Positions 12,648 to 23,701 of a DNA stretch of 64,000 nucleotides are shown in pieces. A program made the position numbers and the translations under genes. Positions within the stretch are counted from its first letter, which is position 1; every line of letters starts with the position of its first letter. The stretch comes from Roseobacter sp. HKCCD6576-2 (lineage in GTDB: Bacteria > Pseudomonadota > Alphaproteobacteria > Rhodobacterales > Rhodobacteraceae): contig NZ_WVNW01000004.1 of the NCBI RefSeq assembly GCF_013179285.1, positions 186,001-250,000 of the forward strand. Reading direction: 5' to 3'. The notes under the pieces are model-generated. The model searched no databases. It saw nothing but the letters and a program-made list of their open reading frames with translations, and was not told the origin of the DNA.

Positions 12648-12723
12648 GGGCCCTTAGCTCAGTTGGTAGAGCAACTGACTTTTAATCAGTGGGTCGCAGG
12701 TTCGAATCCTGCAGGGCTCACCA
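12648..12723 (+). tRNA. tRNA-Lys (anticodon UUU)
   Basis: A complete 76-nt cloverleaf. The acceptor GGGCCCT pairs with AGGGCTC (one G-U), the D-arm is GCTC/GAGC, the anticodon stem ACTGA/TCAGT carries loop CTTTTAA with anticodon TTT at 12681-12683 and A37 after it. The T-arm is GCAGG TTCGAAT CCTGC, and the discriminator A is followed by an encoded CCA. The A37 is a site for t6A and ms2t6A; mtaB and tsaE are both in this window. It is divergent from dapF. Confidence 0.97.
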
Positions 12724-13430
12724 CTTCAGCCGATTTGTGACGACAATTGACCATTCGGGTCATGTTTTCGGTCATTCGCGCGATGCATGAAATAGGGATG
12801 TTGTCTGGCACCGGGATCAAAGCTCTCTCTAAGGTATGGCCTTTGATGAGGGGCACTGCTGCCTAAGCTCATTGCTCAGAGGCAGGGCAGCGCTTCACGA
12901 AATCTACCGCCCAGGCGATCGGGTCGGCGACATTCCTTTTTGATTGGCTGTCGCTGCCTGGGGCTAAGGTCTTCGGCTGCGTGGGCCTGTTTCTGATCTC
13001 GCTTCGATGCCGTCACTATGTGAACTCCGCCTATCTGAAGCGGTTGGCTCAACCAGGTCGCGCAGTCGACCTTTAGAACGGAGTCGGACCTGGCGATGGG
13101 GTCGAGGTCATCTTTCGTCCCCGGCGGCGTCTAATGCGGTTGCTGCTTGGGCGAATTATAGCGGTGCGAATGCTGGCGCGATATAGGTGGTAATCGGAAC
13201 GGTCATGATCTCATCCGCCATCACCATGGTTTTGATTTAGACATACGAGGCTCTGCGCGGCCCGAGCAGCGCGCCGCCGGCACGCACTGGCTCCGCGGCA
13301 GGGCTGAGGTGCTGAATATGGGTGCTCCTGCTGAACCGTTTCGACGCATTTTTCGCCTGGCTCAAAGTGATCCGGGTGGTCTTCGTTGAAACGCATGGCG
13401 GCGCGTTTGGTCGCTGGTTTGAGACGCGCT
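12724..13430. other. Gene-free region downstream of tRNA-Lys
   Basis: About 700 bp with no recognisable gene, the longest such gap in a densely packed window. Reading frames here are short or have unusual composition. A minus-strand frame reaching in from 13561 to 13211 only overlaps the dehydrogenase end and resembles no family I know. I do not see a repeat of the tRNA 3' end that would mark an integration site, nor inverted repeats of an insertion sequence. It may be a decayed insertion or a regulatory spacer. Confidence 0.5.
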
Positions 13431-14558
13431 TCAAATCGCCGCATCGTTGACCATGCTGTCCGCCAGTTGATCTGGCCGCAACGAGGTCGCGCCAATTTGC
13501 GCAAGGGTGATGCTCGTCTCATCACAAAGAACCTCCCATAGCCGGTGCAGCCCCTCTTCACCGCCGGCTGCGATGGCGAATTGAAGGACGCGCCCGAGAA
13601 AGGTGAACATCGCGCCGCTGGCGTAGGCTTTCACCACATCTTCCCCGGATCGCAGGCCCGTGTCGAAGAACAGCGGCATCTCTTTGCCAACGGCGGACCT
13701 GATCTCGGAGAGAACATCGATCGGCGCAGGTGCACTTTCAAGCTGCCGGGCCCCATGGCTTGAGACCTGTATGGCATCGACGCCCGCTTGCTGCAGAAGG
13801 ACTGCGTCTTCGGTATCCAACACGCCTTTCACGACCAGACGGCCCGGCCACATGTCGCGCAGTTTTGCCAACGCGCCCCAATCCGCCCGCGCGCGGCTGG
13901 CGGTTCGGTCGAAGGCGTAGCCAGGCATCTGGAAATTAGCCATCTCTGGCCGCCCTTTGACCAGCGTCGACAGCGACCATCGCGGGTGTAAAGCGAAATC
14001 GATGAACTGTTTCGGACCGATCCGGAACGGCATAGTGAACCCGTGCTGCAACTCGCGCGGACGGCGACCGACTTCGGGGACGTCTACCGTTAGGATGATC
14101 GTTTCATAACCAGCGGCCTTAGCCCGCTCGACGAGTTTGAATGTGCCCGTCCCGTCGCCCGTGAAATAAAGCTGGAACCACGCGTTGCCCTCGGCCGCCT
14201 CGATCAGCGGCTCCATCGCGGTTGACGCAACCGTGGACACTCCAAGTGGAACCTTCTCACGGGCGGCCAGACGGGCCAGCATGAGATCCGCACCTGGCCC
14301 GGACAGATCGCATAGTCCCATCGGGCTGATTCCAAACGGGGCATTGGTCTTTTTACCGAAAACCGAGACCGAGATATCCCGCGCGCTGACATCCCGCAGA
14401 ATCCGAGGCCGAAGGGTCAGCGCGTCAAAAGCGGCCCGGTTGCGCGCGGCTCCGGTCTCCCGACCAGCCGCGCCATCAATGTAATCGAACACCATCCAAG
14501 GCAGACGCCGCCGCGCAAGACGGCGTGCGTCTTCACTAGAGTGAATGCTCGGTGGCAT
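13431..14558 (-). CDS. FMN-dependent 2-hydroxyacid dehydrogenase, proposed sulfolactate dehydrogenase
   Basis: A 375-aa TIM-barrel flavoprotein of the L-lactate dehydrogenase / glycolate oxidase family. The catalytic base motif is SSHGARQLE (H268, R271), an FMN-binding VVKG follows LVVKGVLDTEDA (K244), and the phosphate-binding end has DTGLRSGEDVVKA and LGRVLQFA. It lacks a signal peptide or haem domain, so electrons probably go to quinone or another carrier. It is the last gene of the sulfonate operon, 1 nt after comE. Between HpsN (makes sulfolactate) and ComDE (use sulfopyruvate) the missing step is 2-hydroxyacid oxidation, so I infer sulfolactate as substrate (role of SlcD). Plain L-lactate is the alternative. 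The start could also be ATG 14576. Confidence 0.78.
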   Translation of the reverse strand: MPPSIHSSEDARRLARRRLPWMVFDYIDGAAGRETGAARNRAAFDALTLRPRILRDVSARDISVSVFGKKTNAPFGISPMGLCDLSGPGADLMLARLAAREKVPLGVSTVASTAMEPLIEAAEGNAWFQLYFTGDGTGTFKLVERAKAAGYETIILTVDVPEVGRRPRELQHGFTMPFRIGPKQFIDFALHPRWSLSTLVKGRPEMANFQMPGYAFDRTASRARADWGALAKLRDMWPGRLVVKGVLDTEDAVLLQQAGVDAIQVSSHGARQLESAPAPIDVLSEIRSAVGKEMPLFFDTGLRSGEDVVKAYASGAMFTFLGRVLQFAIAAGGEEGLHRLWEVLCDETSITLAQIGATSLRPDQLADSMVNDAAI

Positions 14559-14559
14559 T

Positions 14560-15114
14560 CTAGCTCGCGACAGCATTCATGAAGCGGTCGCGGATGACGA
14601 CGGGGTCCATCGTGATCACCGGCATCTTGGCGTTGCCGCTGTCACATTTGACCACGATGATATGCATCTCTCCGCTCTCAAGGGCTTTTTGCAGTACCGC
14701 GCCGGTGTCTTTGTCCTGGCACTCGATCACATTCTCACAACCGCAGGCCTCCGCCACTTTGCTGAGCGAGGTTTTCTTGCCCGTGTAGGTCGGCTGATCG
14801 CCAGTCGAGCCATAGGAGCCGTTGTCGATGATCATCAGGATGAAATTGTCGGCCACATTGTTCGCGATGGTCGGCAAGGTGCCCATATTCGTCAGGATCG
14901 AGCCGTCGCCATCGATCACGATGACCGGCTTGGGCTGCGCCAGGGCCAGGCCAAGCCCAATCGAAGACGCAAGCCCCATCGTTCCCAGCATGTAGAAATT
15001 CGTCGGTTGGTCATCGATAGCGTGCAGTTCTTGCGACGGGATGCCGATGTTACAGACGACAAGCTGGTCACGCAGGATCGGGGCGATCTCTCGCAGGATT
15101 TCGGAGCGGATCAT
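14560..15114 (-). CDS. comE: Sulfopyruvate decarboxylase, beta subunit
   Basis: A 184-aa thiamine-diphosphate subunit that, with ComD, decarboxylates 3-sulfopyruvate to sulfoacetaldehyde. The cofactor motif is GDG (69-71) followed by N98 in IIDNGSYGSTG, the expected spacing for ThDP/Mg binding. The N-terminus IRSEILREIAPILRDQLVVCNIG is typical of ComE. The ATG at 15114 overlaps the comD stop (ATGA), so the two subunits are translationally coupled. Phosphonopyruvate decarboxylase is a related alternative, but the split two-gene form and the HpsN context favour sulfopyruvate. Confidence 0.88.
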   Translation of the reverse strand: MIRSEILREIAPILRDQLVVCNIGIPSQELHAIDDQPTNFYMLGTMGLASSIGLGLALAQPKPVIVIDGDGSILTNMGTLPTIANNVADNFILMIIDNGSYGSTGDQPTYTGKKTSLSKVAEACGCENVIECQDKDTGAVLQKALESGEMHIIVVKCDSGNAKMPVITMDPVVIRDRFMNAVAS

Positions 15115-15617
15115 TGGTCGCCATAGCCTCCCCAGAAAGACGCATCCGTCAGGATCGCCACAGGTTTGTTGCACATGAAGGTGTATTTCAGAATCGTGTC
15201 GAGCTCGTCAGCATCGCTTTCCGTGTGGAAATGATAGGTCGGGATATGCAGTTGGTTCAGCAGTGCCTTCGTATGCACGGCCATTTCCACCTGACATGCC
15301 ACCGGTTCGCGCAATTCGCCGCGATAGCTGATCAGCATCGGCAAGGGCATCCGGTAGTATTGGGTCAGCGTCACAAGCGTGTTGATCGTCACACCAATGG
15401 CAGTGTTCTGCATGATGATGGCGGGGCGCTTGCCACCCATATAGGCCCCGGCGCAGAGACCCATGCCCTCATCCTCTTTGTTGGACGGGATGTGGTAAAT
15501 CTCGGGCCGGGTGTCGACCTCATCAATCACACCGGCCAGTTGTTTGCAGGGCACGGTTGTGATGAAGGACACGTCATTGGCGACGAAATCATCAACAATC
15601 TTCTTTGAGATACTCAC
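15111..15617 (-). CDS. comD: Sulfopyruvate decarboxylase, alpha subunit
   Basis: A 168-aa subunit carrying the pyrimidine-binding half of the ThDP enzyme. The glutamate that activates the cofactor is in SNKEDEGMGLCAGAYMGG, and QNTAIGVTINTLVTL follows, as in ComD. I choose the GTG at 15617 with AGGAG 11 nt upstream; a TTG at 15644 would add nine residues. A 14-bp perfect palindrome lies just upstream. It is separated from the usp gene by 72 nt, the largest gap in this part of the operon, so an internal promoter or control site is possible. Confidence 0.87.
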   Translation of the reverse strand: MSISKKIVDDFVANDVSFITTVPCKQLAGVIDEVDTRPEIYHIPSNKEDEGMGLCAGAYMGGKRPAIIMQNTAIGVTINTLVTLTQYYRMPLPMLISYRGELREPVACQVEMAVHTKALLNQLHIPTYHFHTESDADELDTILKYTFMCNKPVAILTDASFWGGYGDQ

Positions 15618-15639
15618 GGGCTGAAGGGCTCCTGTATTT

Positions 15640-15653
15640 GGCAACCGGTTGCC
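15640..15653. promoter_or_regulatory. Perfect palindrome upstream of comD, possible operator
   Basis: GGCAACCGGTTGCC is a perfect 14-bp inverted repeat with a central CG, the layout of LacI-family operators. It is 22 bp before the chosen comD start, in the 72-nt usp-comD gap. Next to it the half-site GCAACCGG occurs once more. It differs from the paired sites near the LacI gene (22551-22587), so it may bind a different regulator. Confidence 0.4.
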
Positions 15654-15689
15654 GGTTGCGGATGATGGTATGTTACGTTTCCGGCGGGG

Positions 15690-16103
15690 CTATTCGGCGT
15701 CGCGCAGGACATGCACCGCACATGGGGCGTGACGGACAACCCGCGCAGCGGTCGAGCCGAGCAGATAGTCGATTAGACCAGGTTTGTGAGACCCCATCAC
15801 AATGCAATCGGCCCCTTGAGCCGTCGCGTAATCGATGATGGTGCGGCCGCTATGCCCCTTCTCGACGACGGGTGTCACATTCGCTTGCCCGGCAACCCGC
15901 TCGCTCAGCTTCGCTTTGGTGGCAGCAAAGGCTTGGCGCACAACCTCTTCGTCCAGATAGGCGCTGACCGAGCCTTGCGGGGCTTCGTAGACATGGAGCG
16001 CGGTGATTTTGCCGTTCTCATTCAAGAGCTTGTTCGCCAGGGCCAGGGCGGTTTTGCCAAACCCGTGGTCGAGCGCCATCGGAACGATGATATGGTCATA
16101 CAT
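15690..16103 (-). CDS. Universal stress protein (UspA family)
   Basis: A 137-aa cytoplasmic alpha/beta protein of the nucleotide-binding Usp fold. The ATP-binding signature is near the C-terminus: GSHKPGLIDYLLGSTAARVV, matching G-x2-G-x9-G-S/T. I choose the ATG at 16103 with GGAAGGA upstream; a start at 16136 would overlap the Zn-dehydrogenase gene. Usp genes are often found in TRAP transporter operons (TeaD of the ectoine TRAP system binds ATP and modulates uptake), so a role in tuning DHPS uptake is an inference. Confidence 0.85.
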   Translation of the reverse strand: MYDHIIVPMALDHGFGKTALALANKLLNENGKITALHVYEAPQGSVSAYLDEEVVRQAFAATKAKLSERVAGQANVTPVVEKGHSGRTIIDYATAQGADCIVMGSHKPGLIDYLLGSTAARVVRHAPCAVHVLRDAE

Positions 16104-16132
16104 GGCGGGGTCCTTCCAAGGAATATGCGTCT

Positions 16133-17122
16133 TCACGCATGAGGGTTCAGAACAATCTTCGGCGCGGCGGAGCGCCCGGCGCGTATATCAGCGAAGGCCG
16201 ATGCGCCATCAGCCAGCGGCCGGGCCTCGGTCCAGTGCAGCGACCCTAGGCGTCCGTCGAAGATGGCCGCCGCCGTCTTGCGGAAATCCTGCGCCGTGTA
16301 GGTATAGGTGCCGAAAAAGGTGATCTCTTGCAACGTCATGCGACGAATATCGAGGCCGCCTGTCGCCTCACCGAGGCCAATATGGGCGATCACGCCGCCG
16401 GGCCGGGCATGGGCCGAAGCGGTCGCCCGGGTGGCGGCATACCCTACCCCATCGACAACAAGATCGAACTGGGCGCCGCTGGACAGCTTATCGGGTGCCA
16501 AGGCCGTTTGGTTCCCGAGGCCGGTCAGGACCTCGCGCCGCGCCTCATTCGGCTCCAAAATCGTCACTTCTGGCACGCCTTGCGCCGTCAGAGACAGGGC
16601 CGCGCCCAATCCGATCGCGCCGCCACCAATCACCAGCGCGGTCTCTGCCACGCCCGCCAACGCATGTTTCGCGAGCCGCACCGCGTGCCAGCCACAGGCA
16701 ATGGGTTCGGCAAGCGCGGCCATATCGAGCGTCACATGGTCGGGCACAGTCACCAGATTCTCATCACGCATGGCGACATATTGCGCAAAAGCGCCTTCCC
16801 GGGGCGGCATCGAGATGATCGAGCGCGCGGCGCAGAGATTATCATGACCGCTGGTGCAGGCCGCGCAAGTGCCGCAGGTTACGAGAGGGTTCAACGTCAC
16901 CCGTTCGCCATCTCGCGCCCCGCCGACCACAATGCCCGCAGCCTCATGGCCTAAGATAAGCGGCGCGGGGCGGCGCTCGTCATGGCCCAAGAAGGCATGC
17001 ATGTCGGAGCCGCAGATCCCGACCGATAGGATCTTGATCAGCTGTTCGCCCTGCCCCGCCACCGCGTCTGGCACATCGCGAAACGCAAGCGTCTCGGGGC
17101 CGTCATAGACCAGCGCTTTCAT
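16133..17122 (-). CDS. hpsP: Zinc-dependent alcohol dehydrogenase, HpsP-like
   Basis: A 329-aa medium-chain dehydrogenase. Catalytic zinc ligands are C37 (GICGSD) and H59-E60 (GHE); the structural zinc has four Cys (C83, C86, C89, C97). The NAD(P) fold has a GGGAIGLGA turn near residue 167. In the DHPS pathway, two dehydrogenases (HpsO and HpsP) interconvert the enantiomers by oxidising C2 and re-reducing it; this gene and the next are of the expected two classes, an ADH and an SDR. Its start overlaps the SDR stop (ATGA). Assignment to HpsP rests on context. Confidence 0.78.
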   Translation of the reverse strand: MKALVYDGPETLAFRDVPDAVAGQGEQLIKILSVGICGSDMHAFLGHDERRPAPLILGHEAAGIVVGGARDGERVTLNPLVTCGTCAACTSGHDNLCAARSIISMPPREGAFAQYVAMRDENLVTVPDHVTLDMAALAEPIACGWHAVRLAKHALAGVAETALVIGGGAIGLGAALSLTAQGVPEVTILEPNEARREVLTGLGNQTALAPDKLSSGAQFDLVVDGVGYAATRATASAHARPGGVIAHIGLGEATGGLDIRRMTLQEITFFGTYTYTAQDFRKTAAAIFDGRLGSLHWTEARPLADGASAFADIRAGRSAAPKIVLNPHA

Positions 17123-17880
17123 TTTGCGGTGTACCCTCCGTCAACCATCAGAACATGACCCGTCACATAGGCCGATGCCTCCGAGCAGAGGAACAGGAGC
17201 GGTCCGTCGATATCCTCAAGCGTGCCATTGCGCCCGATACAGGTTTGCGCCGCATTGCGCGCCGCGCGCTCCTCATCGACGAAGACTGGTCCGGTCAGTT
17301 CCGTCGGAAAAAAGCCCGGCCCGATGGCGTTTGCGTTGATCCCATTGCCCGACCAGGCCTCGGCCATGGCCCGGGTCAATTGACCGATCCCGGCTTTCGA
17401 CGTGCCATAGGCAATGCCGCCCGGGAAAGCGCGCGTGGTTTGTAGCGAGGCGAAATTGACAATTCTGCCCCACCCTTTGGCCTTCATCGCGGGCACAAGC
17501 GCTTGGGTCAGGAAGAAGGGGGCGGCAAGGTTAAGCGCCATGGTGACATCCCACCCCTCTGGCGACACATCATCCGCCGGTTCGCGTGTGTTGATGCCTG
17601 CGGCATGGACCACGATATCGGGGGCGCCAAACGGCTCAGCAACCTGTTGCGCAATCTGTGAGAGGCTGTCCCTCTGGGATAGATCTGCCGCCACGACGGC
17701 CGCATTGGCGCCGGTTTCCTCGGCCAAGGCACGCAAGGCGTCCGCGCGCCGCGCGACACCAACCACGCGCGCCCCTGCAGCGGCCAGGGCCATCGCGGAG
17801 CGACGTCCGAGGCCAGAGCTGGCCCCGGTGACACAGGCCACCCGGCCTGCCAGATCAAACATGCCGCGTGGGTCAGCCAT
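17119..17880 (-). CDS. hpsO: Short-chain dehydrogenase, HpsO-like
   Basis: A 253-aa classical SDR. Residues 18-25 hold the NAD(P) motif TGASSGLG; catalytic residues are N117, S145, Y158 and K162 (YGTSK); the C-terminal VMVDGGY-type end is usual. I choose the ATG at 17880, which overlaps the hpsN stop by 8 nt and avoids reading deep into hpsN. In the DHPS pathway an SDR and a zinc dehydrogenase oxidise and reduce C2 to interconvert the DHPS enantiomers; position between hpsN and the zinc enzyme supports that role. Gluconate or ribitol dehydrogenase is an alternative by family alone. Confidence 0.78.
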   Translation of the reverse strand: MADPRGMFDLAGRVACVTGASSGLGRRSAMALAAAGARVVGVARRADALRALAEETGANAAVVAADLSQRDSLSQIAQQVAEPFGAPDIVVHAAGINTREPADDVSPEGWDVTMALNLAAPFFLTQALVPAMKAKGWGRIVNFASLQTTRAFPGGIAYGTSKAGIGQLTRAMAEAWSGNGINANAIGPGFFPTELTGPVFVDEERAARNAAQTCIGRNGTLEDIDGPLLFLCSEASAYVTGHVLMVDGGYTAK

Positions 17881-19180
17881 CGGCAGTGAGATCAAACTGC
17901 TCGTCCGGGAAGTACTTGGCCAGGCGCGCGTCGGCGGCCCGTGCATGGCCTTCCATCCCCTCCAAACGCGAGATGCGCGCCGTCGCCTCAGCCACGTCTT
18001 TGGCGCCTTCACGAGTCGCCTGCTGCCAGGTGACGATCTTCATATATTTATGGACCGATAGGCCGCCGGTATAAGACGCCGCCCCCGATGTGGGCAGCAC
18101 ATGGTTCGTGCCGCTGGCCTTATCGCCATAGGCCACGGTTGTTTCCTCGCCCAAAAACAGCGAGCCATAGCAGCTCAGCCGGTTCTTCCACCACTCCAGA
18201 TCTTCCGCCTGCACGGTCAGATGTTCGGGTGCGTATGCGTCGGAACAGGCGGCCATATCTTCGCGATCGGCGCAGAGGATCACCTCGGCATAATCGCGCC
18301 AAGCAGCAGTCGCGTTTTCGCGGTTCACCTCAGGCAGATCGTCGATCAGAGCCGGAATCCGGGCCATCACGTCTTCGGCCAAGGCCCGGTCATCGGTCAC
18401 CAGCCACACCGGCGAGTTATAGCCATGCTCGGCCTGGCTCACCAAATCGGTGGCCACGATATGCGGATCGGCCGTACGATCAGCGAGGATTAGGCTATCG
18501 GTCGGTCCGGCGATCATGTCGATGCCGACGCGCCCAAAGAGAATGCGCTTGGCCTCGGCCACGAACTGGTTGCCAGGGCCCACGAGGATGTTGGCTTCTG
18601 GCAATCCGAACAGCCCGTAGGTCATCGCCGCGACGCCTTGAACGCCGCCCAAGGCCATGATCGTGTCTGCGCCACAGATATGGGCGGCATAGACGATGGC
18701 CGGGGCCACGCCGACGCCCGGACGCGGTGGAGATGTCGCCATGATGTGCTTACACCCGGCAACCTTCGCGGTCGTCACTGTCATGATCGCGCTCGCGATA
18801 TGGCTGTAGCGCCCACCGGGCACGTAACAGCCCGCCGCATTCACCGGGATCGCCTTCTGCCCTGCGATCAGGCCTGGCACCACCTCCAACTCCAAATCAC
18901 TAACCGTCGCCTTTTGCGCCTCCGCAAAGCGGCGCACATTGTCATGAGCGAACTGGATATCGGCCTTGAGCTTATCGGGGACCAACGCGCTGGCGGCCTC
19001 AATCTCCGCCGGTGTCAGGATGATATTGCCGTCATATTTGTCGAACTTCGCCGCATACTCGCGCGCCTTCTCATCTCCGCCGGCTTCGATATCGGCAAGG
19101 ATGTCACGCACCGTTGCATGCACATCCGAGGCATCCGATTTCGAGGTGAGTGGCGCTTTCTTGAGGTACTCTCGTGTCAT
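17873..19180 (-). CDS. hpsN: Sulfopropanediol 3-dehydrogenase HpsN
   Basis: A 435-aa member of the histidinol dehydrogenase superfamily that oxidises (R)-DHPS to (R)-sulfolactate in two NAD-dependent steps. Zinc-ligand positions of the family are kept: Q249 and H252 (SQAEH), D353 (GDKASGTNH) and H412 (EGHARAAD). The base pair E319-H320 is in YAPEHL. It is not in a his operon but follows a TRAP transporter and precedes SDR, Zn-ADH and sulfopyruvate decarboxylase, which is the hps context. It lies 12 nt after dctM. A generic TRAP-linked HisD-like dehydrogenase is the fallback call. Confidence 0.85.
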   Translation of the reverse strand: MTREYLKKAPLTSKSDASDVHATVRDILADIEAGGDEKAREYAAKFDKYDGNIILTPAEIEAASALVPDKLKADIQFAHDNVRRFAEAQKATVSDLELEVVPGLIAGQKAIPVNAAGCYVPGGRYSHIASAIMTVTTAKVAGCKHIMATSPPRPGVGVAPAIVYAAHICGADTIMALGGVQGVAAMTYGLFGLPEANILVGPGNQFVAEAKRILFGRVGIDMIAGPTDSLILADRTADPHIVATDLVSQAEHGYNSPVWLVTDDRALAEDVMARIPALIDDLPEVNRENATAAWRDYAEVILCADREDMAACSDAYAPEHLTVQAEDLEWWKNRLSCYGSLFLGEETTVAYGDKASGTNHVLPTSGAASYTGGLSVHKYMKIVTWQQATREGAKDVAEATARISRLEGMEGHARAADARLAKYFPDEQFDLTADG

Positions 19181-19192
19181 CTTTAGGCGGTC

Positions 19193-20524
19193 CTATCGGT
19201 AGATCTCTGGAAGGAGGGAGGTGGAGATGGCTGGGATATAAGCGATCATCAGTGTCACGATCAGCATGAAGAAGACGAACGGAACAGCCCGCGCCGCGAT
19301 TTTGAGGATGGATTCGCCGGTTATCCCGGACACAACGAAGAGGTTCAGCCCAAGCGGCGGTGTGATGAAGCCCACCCCAAGCGCCGTGATCATCATCACG
19401 CAGAACTGGATTTCGTTCATGCCGATGTTCTGAGCCAGCGGGAACAAGATCGGCGCGAGGATCACGATATTGGGTGTGGTTTCCATCACGCAGCCTGCGG
19501 CGATCAAGATCAAGATCATCATCAGGATCAGGACCCTCGGATCTTCGCTCACCGATGTGGCCGCCGCGACGAAGCCTTGCGGCACGCCCAAGATCGCCAG
19601 CGCCTGGGCCAGCGGCAGGGAAAACGCGATGATCGGCAGGATCACCCCATTCACCTTGGCCGAGCTAACCAGCATCGCGGGGAAATCCGAGAGCTTCAGT
19701 GTGCCGATGATGAAGCCGATGATGATGGTGACAACAACGGCGACCGCCCCCGCCTCGGTCGGCGTCAAACGGCCAGAGAAGATGCCGTAAAAGATGATGC
19801 CGGGTACAAGAAACGCGTACCAGCCGGAGCGGATCGTCTTCCACAGGTTCGCACCCCATTCGCCGACGGTCATCAGCCCGCCACCTTCATAAGCGTGGCG
19901 GCGATTAACGATCGTGTTGGTGATCAAGATCGCGACAAGCACCAGAAGGCCGGGAATGACGGCGGCCAGGAACAGGATCGAGACATTCACACCCAGAACC
20001 AGGCCGATGATGATATAGGCGATCGAGGGCGGGATCAGGATGCCGGTACAGGCCCCCGCCGCGACCAGGGCGCAGGCATAGGGGCGCGGATAGCCACTTT
20101 CGACCAGCCGGTCGATGGTCATCCGGCCAACGGCGGCCGCCCCCGCCGCATCGGAGCCCGAGATCGCGGCGAACATGCCGCAGACCAGCACCGTGGCCGA
20201 GCCAAAGCCGCCTTTGGCCCAACAGGTGATCGCTTCGGCCACGTCGAGGAATTTCTTGCTGAGACCGGTTCGAACCAGCACGTCGCCGGTCAAGATGAAC
20301 AAGGGCACGGCGGTCAGGGCGAAGTGGTCAATGCCGTGAAACAGGCTCTCGCCCACAAGCGAAAGAGGCAAGGCGCCCGACAGCATCAGCATCAAGATCG
20401 CGGCTGAACCGATGGCGGCCCAGACCGGCACCGCAAGTGCCACGAGGATTACGAACGCGATGATCGGAATGTAGAAATCCCACCCAAGCACGACTGTCTG
20501 GTTCTGGAGTTGTTGCCAAAGCAT
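19193..20524 (-). CDS. hpsM: TRAP transporter large permease (DctM type)
   Basis: A 443-aa membrane protein with about a dozen transmembrane helices, the sodium-coupled translocation unit of a TRAP transporter. Family blocks include GDAAG-type SGSDAAGAAAVG, GILIPPSIAYIIIG and GFITPPLGLNLFVV. It follows the small permease gene by 12 nt and precedes hpsN by 12 nt, so it is expressed with the catabolic enzymes. Substrate (DHPS) is inferred from the operon. The symbols hpsK/L/M for the three TRAP genes follow usage in other DHPS clusters and the exact letter is uncertain. Confidence 0.85.
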   Translation of the reverse strand: MLWQQLQNQTVVLGWDFYIPIIAFVILVALAVPVWAAIGSAAILMLMLSGALPLSLVGESLFHGIDHFALTAVPLFILTGDVLVRTGLSKKFLDVAEAITCWAKGGFGSATVLVCGMFAAISGSDAAGAAAVGRMTIDRLVESGYPRPYACALVAAGACTGILIPPSIAYIIIGLVLGVNVSILFLAAVIPGLLVLVAILITNTIVNRRHAYEGGGLMTVGEWGANLWKTIRSGWYAFLVPGIIFYGIFSGRLTPTEAGAVAVVVTIIIGFIIGTLKLSDFPAMLVSSAKVNGVILPIIAFSLPLAQALAILGVPQGFVAAATSVSEDPRVLILMMILILIAAGCVMETTPNIVILAPILFPLAQNIGMNEIQFCVMMITALGVGFITPPLGLNLFVVSGITGESILKIAARAVPFVFFMLIVTLMIAYIPAISTSLLPEIYR

Positions 20525-20536
20525 GATCTGGCCCCC

Positions 20537-21052
20537 TCAGTCGAAGAGCTTGTCGCCTTCGTAAACGGGGCGCCCGTTACGAAGGTCGGAAACATCACGA
20601 AGGAAGGACTGGATCAGCCGGAACAGAACCAGGGCGAAGCCAAACGGGACGGCAAACAGGAAAAACACCTGGCTGATCCGCAACCCATGCGTGACCGAAC
20701 CGAAGGTCCAGGAGACATGGACCGCCTCCCAAGACCAATAGAGCGCGATGATCGCGACTACGAACATCACGATATCGCCAAAGATATAGAGCAGCGCTTT
20801 GGGGGTCTGCGGGACGTAATTCATGATCACGTCGATCCGGATATGGCCCCGCTCTTTCACTGCCGAGGCGGCCCCGATCCAGGCGAGATAGATGAAGGAA
20901 TAGCGGACGATCTCTTCGCCCCAGATCGAGGAATAGGAAAACACCTCGCGCCGGACGACTTCGATGAACATCGTTCCGACCAACATCACATAGAACACAA
21001 GCAGCAACCAACGCTCCGCGTTCCGATCCAGGTTTTGGTAGAATTTCGACAT
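20537..21052 (-). CDS. hpsL: TRAP transporter small permease (DctQ type)
   Basis: A 171-aa four-helix membrane protein that partners the large permease. Helices lie near residues 15-35, 45-65, 90-110 and 125-150; the second contains WGEEIVRYSFIYLAWIG, a conserved DctQ region. I choose the ATG at 21052, preceded by GGGAGGG. A 105-nt gap with a GC-rich hairpin separates it from the binding-protein gene, while the large permease follows closely. Confidence 0.82.
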   Translation of the reverse strand: MSKFYQNLDRNAERWLLLVFYVMLVGTMFIEVVRREVFSYSSIWGEEIVRYSFIYLAWIGAASAVKERGHIRIDVIMNYVPQTPKALLYIFGDIVMFVVAIIALYWSWEAVHVSWTFGSVTHGLRISQVFFLFAVPFGFALVLFRLIQSFLRDVSDLRNGRPVYEGDKLFD

Positions 21053-21120
21053 GATATCCCTCCCCACGGGTGCCCGGCGATGTCACTGGGGTTGCACGCT
21101 GTCCGCATGGCTGGCGGTGT

Positions 21121-21146
21121 CCGGCGCCGCCAAAAGACAGCGCCGG
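21121..21146 (-). promoter_or_regulatory. Intergenic hairpin between TRAP binding protein and permease genes
   Basis: A 7-bp inverted repeat (CCGGCGC / GCGCCGG, 12-nt loop) lies between the dctP-type stop and the dctQ-type start. No T-run follows on the minus strand, so it looks like a transcript-stabilising or partial-termination element rather than a full terminator. Such hairpins often raise binding-protein expression above permease expression. Confidence 0.4.
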
Positions 21147-21157
21147 TGTGAGTACGC

Positions 21158-22303
21158 TTAGGCGTCGTGGACGTAGTAGCGACCCATCGTGCCAGCGGCT
21201 TCTTCAAGACGCGCGAAGGTGTCCATGGATCCCGCAAGATCGGTCTTGAACTCATCCCAATCGCTGAGTTGATAGCCACCAGCAGCCTGCCACTCCGCAA
21301 GTTGATCATCGCTGAGCGAATGGAACTCGACCCCGTTCGCGGTCAGTTCAGACATCGCATAGCCACGCGCGGCGGGCACTTTGGCCAGGTTCTGCGCCTG
21401 GGTGATCTCGCCTGCGAACTCAATGCCTTCCTGCACGTCCATCGGCAGCGAATTGAACCACTCCAGATTGACCGAATAGACCTGACTGTCCGGCACGGCC
21501 TGGGTGAAGGTCACATGGCTAAGGATTTCGCCGAAGCCAAAGACATGCAGCGCGCCGACCGAGGGGTCGAGCGCGTCGGCCACGCCCTGCCGGATCGCCG
21601 AGGGCGTCTCGCCCCAGGCCACTGGCGTCGGGTTGGCTCCAACCATGCGGTAATACTGCTGCAACATCGCCGAGCCCGGCACGCGGAACTTCACACCCGA
21701 CATGTCAGCAGGCGTGATGATCGCATTGCCGCCCTGGCGCACGGCCACAACCCGCGGGTCGATCACGATATAGAACAGCGCTTTAAAGCCGGAGTCGGCA
21801 ATCCGCGGGTCGACCTCCTGCTTCCAGGCTTCCGACGAGGTCAGATTGGTGAAACGCTGATTGGAGCCGCAGAAATAGGGCAGATTGATCAGATCGACAA
21901 CCGACGCAAAGGGCGCGAAGTTCGACAACGAGTGCTGCGCGCACTGGATTGTGCCCGACTGCACCGCTTGCGCCAATGCACCGCCCGCGCCAAGCTGACC
22001 GCCCGGGGCCAGACGCACATAGACCTTGCCGTTGGTCATGTTCTGAATGTTCTCTTTCAAATCCAGCTGCATGATCGGATAGCTGCGCGAGGCGCCAAGA
22101 ACATAGGCCGTCGCCAGCGTCATGATGTGATCTGCGGCGGCTTCGCGCGCGTTTTCTTCCTGCTGCGTTTGGGCGGCCGCTTCGCTTGACCACAACGTCC
22201 CGGCGGCCCCCGCAACCATGGCGGCGGTAAAGCTGCCGCTTCCCGCGAGCTTAAGGAAGTTTCGGCGCTCTGCCGACTTCAACTCCTGAGTATCATTATC
22301 CAA
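21158..22303 (-). CDS. hpsK: TRAP transporter substrate-binding protein (DctP type)
   Basis: A 381-aa periplasmic binding protein. The N-terminus carries a twin-arginine signal ERRNFLKLAG (residues 12-21) and a hydrophobic core ending SEAAAQ, so export is likely folded via Tat. The mature part has the DctP fold with a VKFRVPGSAM segment and an invariant-type Arg in that region that binds the acid group of the ligand, plus AWGETPSAIRQGVADA. It is the first transport gene after the small membrane protein. DHPS as ligand is inferred from the operon. Confidence 0.85.
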   Translation of the reverse strand: MDNDTQELKSAERRNFLKLAGSGSFTAAMVAGAAGTLWSSEAAAQTQQEENAREAAADHIMTLATAYVLGASRSYPIMQLDLKENIQNMTNGKVYVRLAPGGQLGAGGALAQAVQSGTIQCAQHSLSNFAPFASVVDLINLPYFCGSNQRFTNLTSSEAWKQEVDPRIADSGFKALFYIVIDPRVVAVRQGGNAIITPADMSGVKFRVPGSAMLQQYYRMVGANPTPVAWGETPSAIRQGVADALDPSVGALHVFGFGEILSHVTFTQAVPDSQVYSVNLEWFNSLPMDVQEGIEFAGEITQAQNLAKVPAARGYAMSELTANGVEFHSLSDDQLAEWQAAGGYQLSDWDEFKTDLAGSMDTFARLEEAAGTMGRYYVHDA

Positions 22304-22335
22304 TGTTGTGTCCTCCCTGGACGTTGTGGTGCCGC

Positions 22336-22509
22336 CTATTTCTTTGCGTCGGCTTCTTTTTTCAGAATCGCGATGACGAAGAGAATTGAGGCAGACAACA
22401 GCAGAAGCATCTCGCCTACATCGCCTAGAAACGCGCTGTTGGACGTCGCACCCAATGCAACGTTCAGAACGAAAACAGCGAGCAAAATCACCGATCCAAT
22501 GAGTGCCAT
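22336..22509 (-). CDS. Small two-helix membrane protein heading the sulfonate operon
   Basis: A 57-aa hydrophobic protein with two predicted membrane helices (about residues 2-18 and 31-49) and a short charged tail ending KKEADAKK. I do not recognise a family. The ATG at 22509 has GGGAGGGG about 10 nt upstream; a longer version to 22578 would read through both operator-like repeats and is unlikely. It lies 32 nt before the TRAP binding-protein gene and is the first gene after the LacI-site promoter region, so it is probably co-transcribed with the transporter. Confidence 0.6.
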   Translation of the reverse strand: MALIGSVILLAVFVLNVALGATSNSAFLGDVGEMLLLLSASILFVIAILKKEADAKK

Positions 22510-22550: not shown

Positions 22551-22587
22551 TGTAAGCCTTTACATGCATCAAATGCAAGCCTTTACA
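22551..22587. promoter_or_regulatory. Two tandem LacI-type operator candidates
   Basis: TGTAAGCCTTTACA (22551-22564) and TGCAAGCCTTTACA (22574-22587) differ by one base and are 23 bp apart start to start, about two helical turns. Each has TGTAA/TTACA-like arms, the form of LacI-family operators. They lie in the divergent gap between the small membrane protein and the LacI-family gene, so they are good candidates for control of both the sulfonate operon and the regulator. Confidence 0.65.
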
Positions 22588-22666: not shown

Positions 22667-23701
22667 ATGAAAGACAGCCGACCATCGCCAACCCTTCACG
22701 ATGTCGCCAAACAGTCGGGATTTTCGACAGCGACCGTTTCGCGCTGCCTGAATTTTCCCAAGCAGGTGTCGGAAAAAACGCGCGAAAAAGTCATGGCGGC
22801 AATCGAGGAGCTTGGCTACACGCCCAATTTCGGGGCGCGCGCCATGGCCTCACAGCGGACCAACACGATTGGCGCGATTATCCCGACGATGGAGAACGCG
22901 ATCTTTGCGCGCGGCATTCAGGCCTTCCAGGAGGAGCTTGACGCCCATGGCTATACTCTCTTGGTGGCAAGTTCTTCCTACAGGCCCGATCTAGAGGAAC
23001 AGCAGATCAGATCTTTGGTGGCACGGGGGGCCGACGCCCTACTGCTGATCGGGCATGAGCGGGACCCGGCTGTCTATAAGCTGTTGGAGGCCCAGAACAT
23101 TCCAGCGCTCGTCACTTGGGCGTTCGACCGCACTCAATCGCGCCCGTCAATCGGCTTTGACAACCGATTGGCCATGCGAGAGATGGCCCGGGAGGTCTTG
23201 CGGCTCGGCCATAGGAGACTGGCGTTGATTTCCGCCGATGTCAGTTCAAATGACCGGGCCGCAGCGCGGTTGGAGGGCATCTGCGAAGCACTCCGCGAGG
23301 CCGGTTTGAATGAGAGCGATCTCGCCGTGATCGAAACGCAATATGGCATTGAAACCGGTGCCATCGCCTTTGAAACGCTGATGAGGGCACCGGCCCAACC
23401 GACTGTGGTGTTTTGCGGCAACGATGTTTTGGCCGTGGGCGCGCTTGGCCAGGCACGCGAAATGGGGTTTGACGTGCCGGGCGACGTTTCGATTGTCGGC
23501 TTCGATGACATTGAACTGGCGCAGGTCGCTTATCCGAAGCTGACGACTGTTCATGTCCCGCATCGCGAAATGGGTCGGCACGCAGCGCGGGCACTGATTG
23601 ATGCGGTACAGACTGGACGGCAAATCGAATCGCGCGAGCTGAATGTGGAGTTGCGCTTGCGTGACTCTTTGGGGCCGGTGCCAAAGACCAGCGACAATTG
23701 A
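22667..23701 (+). CDS. LacI-family transcriptional regulator of the sulfonate operon
   Basis: A 344-aa regulator. The N-terminal HTH is residues about 9-30 (LHDVAKQSGFSTATVSRCLN) followed by the hinge helix region; residues about 65-335 form the periplasmic-binding-like ligand domain with the SIVGFDDIELAQ block. It is divergent from the operon across a 157-bp gap with two operator-like repeats. By analogy with the family it should repress until an inducer binds; the inducer is probably DHPS or a pathway intermediate (inference). It ends 257 bp before the kinase gene. Confidence 0.88.
   Translation: MKDSRPSPTLHDVAKQSGFSTATVSRCLNFPKQVSEKTREKVMAAIEELGYTPNFGARAMASQRTNTIGAIIPTMENAIFARGIQAFQEELDAHGYTLLVASSSYRPDLEEQQIRSLVARGADALLLIGHERDPAVYKLLEAQNIPALVTWAFDRTQSRPSIGFDNRLAMREMAREVLRLGHRRLALISADVSSNDRAAARLEGICEALREAGLNESDLAVIETQYGIETGAIAFETLMRAPAQPTVVFCGNDVLAVGALGQAREMGFDVPGDVSIVGFDDIELAQVAYPKLTTVHVPHREMGRHAARALIDAVQTGRQIESRELNVELRLRDSLGPVPKTSDN

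Follow-up and report, generated by a model that had tools for sequence, protein, structure and literature searches.

What is the substrate of an eleven-gene operon at positions 13431 to 22509 of a 64,000-nucleotide stretch (the window) of contig NZ_WVNW01000004.1 from Roseobacter sp. HKCCD6576-2, and where does its pathway lead? An open reading frame (ORF) list and a codon check place the eleven genes on the minus strand, running from 22509 to 13431 in the order small hydrophobic protein, DctP, DctQ, and DctM of a tripartite ATP-independent periplasmic (TRAP) transporter, a HisD-family protein, a short-chain dehydrogenase/reductase (SDR), a zinc alcohol dehydrogenase (ADH), a universal stress protein (Usp), ComD, ComE, and a flavin mononucleotide (FMN) hydroxyacid dehydrogenase. 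An earlier note, made from the letters of this DNA without database searches, had named the same genes, strand, and order, and its end points are exact; it had placed neither xsc nor suyAB inside the operon, with which we agree, and had left the divergent LacI-family gene opposite the operon off its list. It had also proposed that the operon serves the use of 2,3-dihydroxypropane-1-sulfonate (DHPS) by way of sulfopyruvate, and this proposal gains support from what follows. In our view, the operon is very probably a DHPS utilization operon of the Ruegeria ANG-S4/Jannaschia type. What the sequence itself provides is gene content, homology, active-site residues, the presence of xsc and pta, and operator conservation. 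DHPS use through sulfopyruvate accounts best for the genes: the closest solved proteins are DHPS proteins, active-site residues are kept, ComD and ComE score as equivalogs, an FMN enzyme stands where slcD would be expected, and the genome has xsc and pta at other sites. Among the sulfonates of algae, DHPS is an abundant one, and PMC11131964 counts roseobacters with the principal bacteria that consume it (papers are cited here by accession).

Generic profile scans yield broad names only for these proteins, and it is the search against solved structures in the PDB that separates function. By that search, DHPS proteins are the best matches, with large margins for HpsN, HpsP, and the TRAP binding protein and a small one for HpsO. 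The HisD-family protein, HpsN, scores 781 bits against 8wwe, an (R)-DHPS dehydrogenase that would be the Ruegeria pomeroyi enzyme of PMC11131964, and 533 bits against 8v35, a sulfopropanediol 3-dehydrogenase, versus at most 252 bits for histidinol dehydrogenases. The zinc enzyme, HpsP, scores 482 bits against 8wwd and 100 bits against the next structure; the SDR, HpsO, scores 409 bits against the HpsO structure 8wwf and 401 bits against 6le3, deposited as a gluconate 5-dehydrogenase. Catalytic and substrate-binding residues were taken from PMC11382572 for CpHpsN and from PMC11131964 for HpsO and HpsP. In a gap-free alignment, H126, Q248, H251, E318, H319, D352, K353, and H411 of CpHpsN are all kept in the window protein, shifted by +1, and the equivalent of His126, which is assigned to sulfonate recognition, sits in the motif GRYSH; also kept are S145, Q147, Y158, and K162 of HpsO and H59, E60, and E139 of HpsP. 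The HpsO start in relatives, as placed by a crude ORF caller, matches the site given for the window.

How, then, would sulfolactate be carried to sulfoacetaldehyde? ComD scores 149.2 bits against TIGR03845 (cut-off, 147.95) and ComE scores 244.4 bits against TIGR03846 (cut-off, 221.5), the latter a clear pass, so that both subunits of sulfopyruvate decarboxylase lie above equivalog cut-offs, and their genes are adjacent. A simple regular expression for the thiamine diphosphate (ThDP) motif gave no match in ComE, and the family score was used instead. The last gene falls in PF01070 (392.7 bits; the DctP, DctQ, DctM, HisD, SDR, zinc ADH, and Usp families were likewise assigned by Pfam scan), and the PDB relatives of its product are lactate oxidase and the mandelate, glycolate, and lactate dehydrogenases or oxidases. 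These relatives reveal little about its role, and its position is more informative. In the 2014 annotation of R. pomeroyi (PMC4334477), hpsR (LacI family, SPO0590), hpsK, L, M, N, O, and P, and hpsQ (UspA, SPO0597) are followed by slcD (SPO0598), a membrane-bound sulfolactate dehydrogenase. In R. pomeroyi strain SZCCDBG043 (locus L033; not strain DSS-3), Usp is directly followed by a gene whose product is 68.5% identical to the FMN enzyme over 356 amino acids (aa); the window operon therefore resembles its R. pomeroyi counterpart, but with comDE between hpsQ and slcD, and we regard the FMN enzyme as a probable SlcD. Under the Cahn-Ingold-Prelog (CIP) rules, the R enantiomer of sulfolactate corresponds to the L form, and the FMN 2-hydroxyacid dehydrogenase family uses L-2-hydroxy acids; the product of HpsN would therefore fit the next enzyme.

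The earlier note had named a genome search for xsc, pta, suyAB, and cuyA as a check on its proposal. In this genome (4.41 Mb in 64 contigs, listed as 100% complete), two xsc genes score 920.6 and 914.4 bits against TIGR03457 (cut-off, 676.4); they are 76.3% identical over 591 aa, and a phosphate acetyltransferase gene (pta) follows one of them, so the route can close to acetyl phosphate and sulfite. The other xsc (L012 2914-10907, G000:C62) adjoins TRAP genes, a GMC oxidoreductase gene, and a gene for a PF03601 membrane protein, an arrangement that resembles an isethionate locus. A SuyB orthologue was not found in this genome, the sole PF04295 gene of which (contig C9) looks unrelated; it was rejected as a candidate, lying in a sugar-acid TRAP cluster (beside genes for an enolase-type sugar-acid dehydratase, an SDR, a didehydro-deoxy-rhamnonate-type hydrolase, and a TRAP binding protein) and sharing 31.5% identity over 406 aa with the SuyB-like gene of hps locus L058, which is itself so called by family and position only. 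One gene of the CuyA/D-cysteine desulfhydrase family lies above the TIGR01275 cut-off (309.5 versus 289.4 bits), and its locus (L102 2879-10499; G000:C12, about 51.9 to 59.5 kb) also holds genes for a LysR regulator, an Asp/Glu racemase-family protein, and an OpuAC-type ABC transporter; this is possibly a cysteate-type or other amino-sulfonate locus. Could the operon then use DHPS but send most of its sulfopyruvate through transamination to cysteate and cleavage by CuyA, with ComDE as a side branch? The TIGR01275 gene and its racemase and transporter neighbors speak for such a branch, as do the 29 organisms in PMC11382572 that have both the Xsc and CuyA routes. However, comDE are overlapping genes within the operon itself, the TIGR01275 locus comes with genes for a transporter and a LysR regulator of its own, and the best solved relative of its enzyme is D-cysteine desulfhydrase, and we consider this arrangement rather unlikely.

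At the uptake end, the best PDB match of the TRAP binding protein is 24gc, deposited as a "DHPS TRAP transporter" (646 bits, versus 71.6 for the next), and by this match it is, at the level of homology, a DHPS-specific binding protein; it probably carries a Tat signal, judging from a motif. Might the operon chiefly serve a different hydroxysulfonate, sulfolactate for example, and DHPS only secondarily? SlcD and ComDE would process sulfolactate of any origin (PMC11382572, together with general pathway knowledge), but a binding protein so much closer to the DHPS protein than to any other and three DHPS dehydrogenases bearing the published residues make this quite improbable. That a nonsulfonate pathway of the histidinol, gluconate, or mandelate type has been misread as DHPS catabolism is scarcely credible: generic profiles do name HisD, gluconate dehydrogenase, and L-lactate dehydrogenase, and HpsO is nearly as close to the deposited gluconate 5-dehydrogenase, but HpsN, HpsP, and the binding protein beat the next families by hundreds of bits, and comDE equivalogs lie in the same operon.

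Several points nonetheless weigh against DHPS use by the sulfopyruvate route. ComD lies only 1.25 bits above its cut-off; the SlcD assignment rests on position and homology, with PDB relatives that act on lactate, mandelate, and glycolate; the margin of HpsO over 6le3 is small, making the SDR the least exclusive match; xsc is unlinked to the operon and outside operator control; and a CuyA-type gene beside an Asp/Glu racemase-family gene leaves room for a CuyA branch.

With these points in mind, we posit the following route. Predictions in it are the enzyme substrates in this organism, the activity of SlcD, what accepts the electrons, that the operon is repressed, and that DHPS or a product induces it. 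DHPS would enter via the TRAP transporter, and HpsN would use NAD to oxidize R-DHPS to R- (that is, L-) sulfolactate, while HpsO and HpsP would channel the opposite enantiomer, along with intermediates, into the pathway. SlcD would convert L-sulfolactate to sulfopyruvate, its electrons probably passing to the respiratory chain; ComDE would decarboxylate sulfopyruvate to sulfoacetaldehyde; and Xsc and Pta, encoded elsewhere, would take sulfoacetaldehyde to acetyl phosphate and sulfite and then to acetyl-CoA. The LacI repressor HpsR would control the operon through a tandem operator.

What, specifically, might HpsO and HpsP do? Two papers from 2024 disagree: PMC11382572, citing earlier work, describes them as 2-dehydrogenases that interconvert the enantiomers, and PMC11131964 describes them as oxidizing C-3 to give sulfolactaldehyde, which then goes to GabD-2. 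We surveyed the best 80 of 584 confirmed HpsN loci, drawn from titled genome records, a sample that leans to close relatives. No 2-hydroxyacid dehydrogenase was found within 8 kb of hpsN in the 80 loci with own-genome proteins as queries, a search that reaches relatives of those queries, and own-genome aldehyde dehydrogenase queries found a gene within 8 kb only in L070, about 7.2 kb upstream, on the other strand and outside the operon. The GabD-like genes of the window's genome are unlinked to the operon and score just below the TIGR01780 cut-off. The survey fits the epimerizing account slightly better; because these queries found no sulfolactaldehyde or D-2-hydroxyacid dehydrogenase gene within hps operons, HpsO and HpsP might work there mainly as an epimerizing pair.

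Is there a switch for the operon in the region that it shares with the divergent LacI-family gene? All 74 such intergenic regions (73 loci plus the window) hold at least one match to TGTAA-N4-TTACA with at most two mismatches, versus 6.1 of 74 in shuffles. Two matches with at most one mismatch each occur in 63 of the 74 (mononucleotide shuffles: 0.02 of 74 on average), at a spacing of 21 to 23 bp in 62 of these 63. In the window, they are tandem 14-bp palindromes 23 bp apart (22551 to 22587), and the pattern TGTAARSSYTTRCA occurs in the whole genome only at these two sites (a palindromic site counts on both strands), with 0 occurrences of a control pattern. The pair is kept in loci with TRAP genes (49 of 57) and without them (13 of 16), and in loci with comE (46 of 52) and without it (16 of 21). 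We infer a local HpsR switch that acts on the operon and does not include xsc, and the operator pair offers a handle for predicting DHPS induction. From the literature on a LacI-type HpsR in DHPS use, a single search turned up just the annotation paper, PMC4334477, and the operators may be described elsewhere.

The first gene of the operon raises a question of its own. Its product, a probable membrane protein of about 57 aa with no match in the Pfam scan, was found in all 57 loci with a DHPS TRAP binding protein and in none of the 23 that lack one, of which one is truncated upstream. Lengths are 57 to 63 aa in 50 of 58 sequences, with starts chosen by script, and the core contains N-x-x-L-G-like and F-L-x-D-V-x-E-M-L-like stretches. 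The ratio of nonsynonymous to synonymous differences per site (pN/pS) relative to the window is low, with a median of 0.335 (0.25 to 0.47; n = 57; uncorrected; median pS, 0.76). The gene provides a handle for asking whether a TRAP transporter might have an accessory component here. We speculate, with more doubt than conviction about the combination, that this protein is a fourth, unrecognized component of the DHPS TRAP transporter, that HpsR alone switches the whole operon via the tandem 14-bp operator, and that HpsO and HpsP are mainly an epimerizing pair feeding HpsN.

How widespread is this layout? At least 9.9 kb downstream of hpsN is available in 63 of the 80 loci. Both comD and comE are present in 50 of the 63 (38 with the FMN gene and 12 without), 6 have the FMN gene but no comE, and 7 have neither. 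An identical 12-gene order, the LacI-family gene included, occurs in 32 of the 80 loci, among them Ruegeria sp. ANG-S4 (L037), and contig ends truncate several of the remaining 48; the layout is therefore not due to chance. In the 12 comDE loci without a downstream FMN dehydrogenase (L015, L016, L022, L035, L044, L047, L048, L061, L066, L085, L086, and L093), the genes for oxidizing sulfolactate may lie at another site or be of another kind; no replacement sulfolactate dehydrogenase was recognized among eight downstream ORFs scanned, one each from L015, L016, and L044 of these 12 and from L024, L033, L058, L071, and L092. Two of the 80 loci, L058 and L089, have a SuyB-like gene shortly after the hps genes, and these two genes are 91% identical. 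As a separate observation, L016 holds a PF04295-family gene about 6.9 kb upstream of hpsN, with 29.8% identity to the L058 gene and 36.7% to the C9 gene.

The comDE form had been called less common than the SuyAB form in the earlier note. That holds in the broad survey of PMC11382572, where 272 HpsN proteins include 93 with suyB, 51 with cuyA, and 37 with comDE and xsc, but not among close relatives, for which the counts given above run the other way. In an even draw of 248 genomes of the family, the window's genome included, HpsN has a match in 133 (E ≤ 1e-120) and ComE in 61 (E ≤ 1e-50). Pairing was counted on the 98 best HpsN rows among the matches listed (at least 67% identity; 92 genomes), weaker rows, unlisted rows, and short fragments being left out: comE lies within 8 kb on the same strand in 38 rows, from 36 of the 92 HpsN-bearing genomes (the window's included), and 28 of 66 ComE rows are unpaired. 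One left-out fragment, in G056, has ComE on the same contig and strand and would add one genome. Plasmids carry the gene set as well: the FMN gene occurs in 13 plasmid records, 10 of them from Leisingera, and the one record opened contains the whole operon; its annotation names comD and comE and labels the small gene "hypothetical." By these counts, operons with comDE are common, not rare, in the family.

The features of the locus are collected below. Behind the small membrane gene, the ten tight genes correspond to hpsKLM, hpsN, hpsO, hpsP, hpsQ (Usp), comD, comE, and the FMN gene, and neighbors overlap by as much as 17 nt (ComE/FMN) or lie at most 105 nt apart. Past the 3' end lie a tRNA-Lys gene (12648 to 12723) and putative dapF-like and mtaB-like genes, so named from their translations. 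Between the tRNA-Lys gene and the operon end (12725 to 13430), about 700 nt hold no convincing gene.

Table 1. Features of the putative DHPS operon and its upstream region (window coordinates)
Feature	Position	Strand	Basis
LacI-family regulator, probable HpsR	22667..23701	+	Pfam LacI and Peripla_BP_3; match of at least 50% identity in 73/80 hps loci; SPO0590 hpsR is LacI family
Operator-like palindrome TGTAAAGGCTTACA, operon-proximal	22551..22564	unstranded	
Operator-like imperfect palindrome TGTAAAGGCTTGCA, distal	22574..22587	unstranded	
Small hydrophobic protein, 57 aa, probably membrane, uncharacterized	22336..22509	-	
TRAP solute-binding protein, hpsK-type, TTG start	21158..22303	-	Best PDB match 24gc
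TRAP small permease (DctQ)	20537..21052	-	PF04290
TRAP large permease (DctM)	19193..20524	-	PF06808, TIGR00786
HpsN, predicted R-DHPS 3-dehydrogenase	17873..19180	-	PDB 8wwe, 8v35; residues kept
HpsO, predicted SDR DHPS dehydrogenase	17119..17880 (alternative start 17862)	-	PDB 8wwf; residues kept
HpsP, predicted zinc DHPS dehydrogenase	16133..17122	-	PDB 8wwd; residues kept
Universal stress protein, hpsQ position	15690..16103	-	PF00582; hpsQ is SPO0597, UspA
ComD, sulfopyruvate decarboxylase alpha subunit, start uncertain	15111..15644	-	TIGR03845
ComE, sulfopyruvate decarboxylase beta subunit	14560..15114	-	TIGR03846
FMN-dependent L-2-hydroxyacid dehydrogenase, probable SlcD	13431..14576	-	PF01070; position after Usp/comDE

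How does the operon compare with known systems? What sets it apart is modest, namely the operator and the small gene. According to PMC11382572, Jannaschia sp. CCS1, Ruegeria sp. ANG-S4, and Granulosicoccus antarcticus carry hpsNOP, slcD, comDE, and xsc (the "Xsc pathway"); these clusters have the same pathway genes as the window, and we found no difference in kind, the xsc of the window organism being unlinked. ANG-S4 matches gene for gene, in the order LacI, small protein, KLM, N, O, P, Usp, comD, comE, and FMN. In many RCA-cluster species, hpsN, comDE, and soeABC are reported (PMC10675870). The hpsRKLMNOPQ-slcD operon of R. pomeroyi DSS-3 (PMC4334477) is collinear with the window for LacI, TRAP, hpsN, hpsO, hpsP, Usp, and slcD; unlike the window, strain SZCCDBG043 has no comDE match within about 10 kb on each side of hpsN. 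The hpsRNOUP-suyAB cluster of Cupriavidus pinatubonensis (PMC11382572) has the HpsN, HpsO, and HpsP core in common with the window, whereas its uptake is by a major facilitator superfamily (MFS) transporter, its sulfolactate is cleaved directly by SuyAB, and the cluster is described without comDE. Neither the pathway nor the gene combination is new: the window is an example of a known pathway in a further organism, one more in which the complete sulfopyruvate route is encoded, and the known pathway is unchanged by it.

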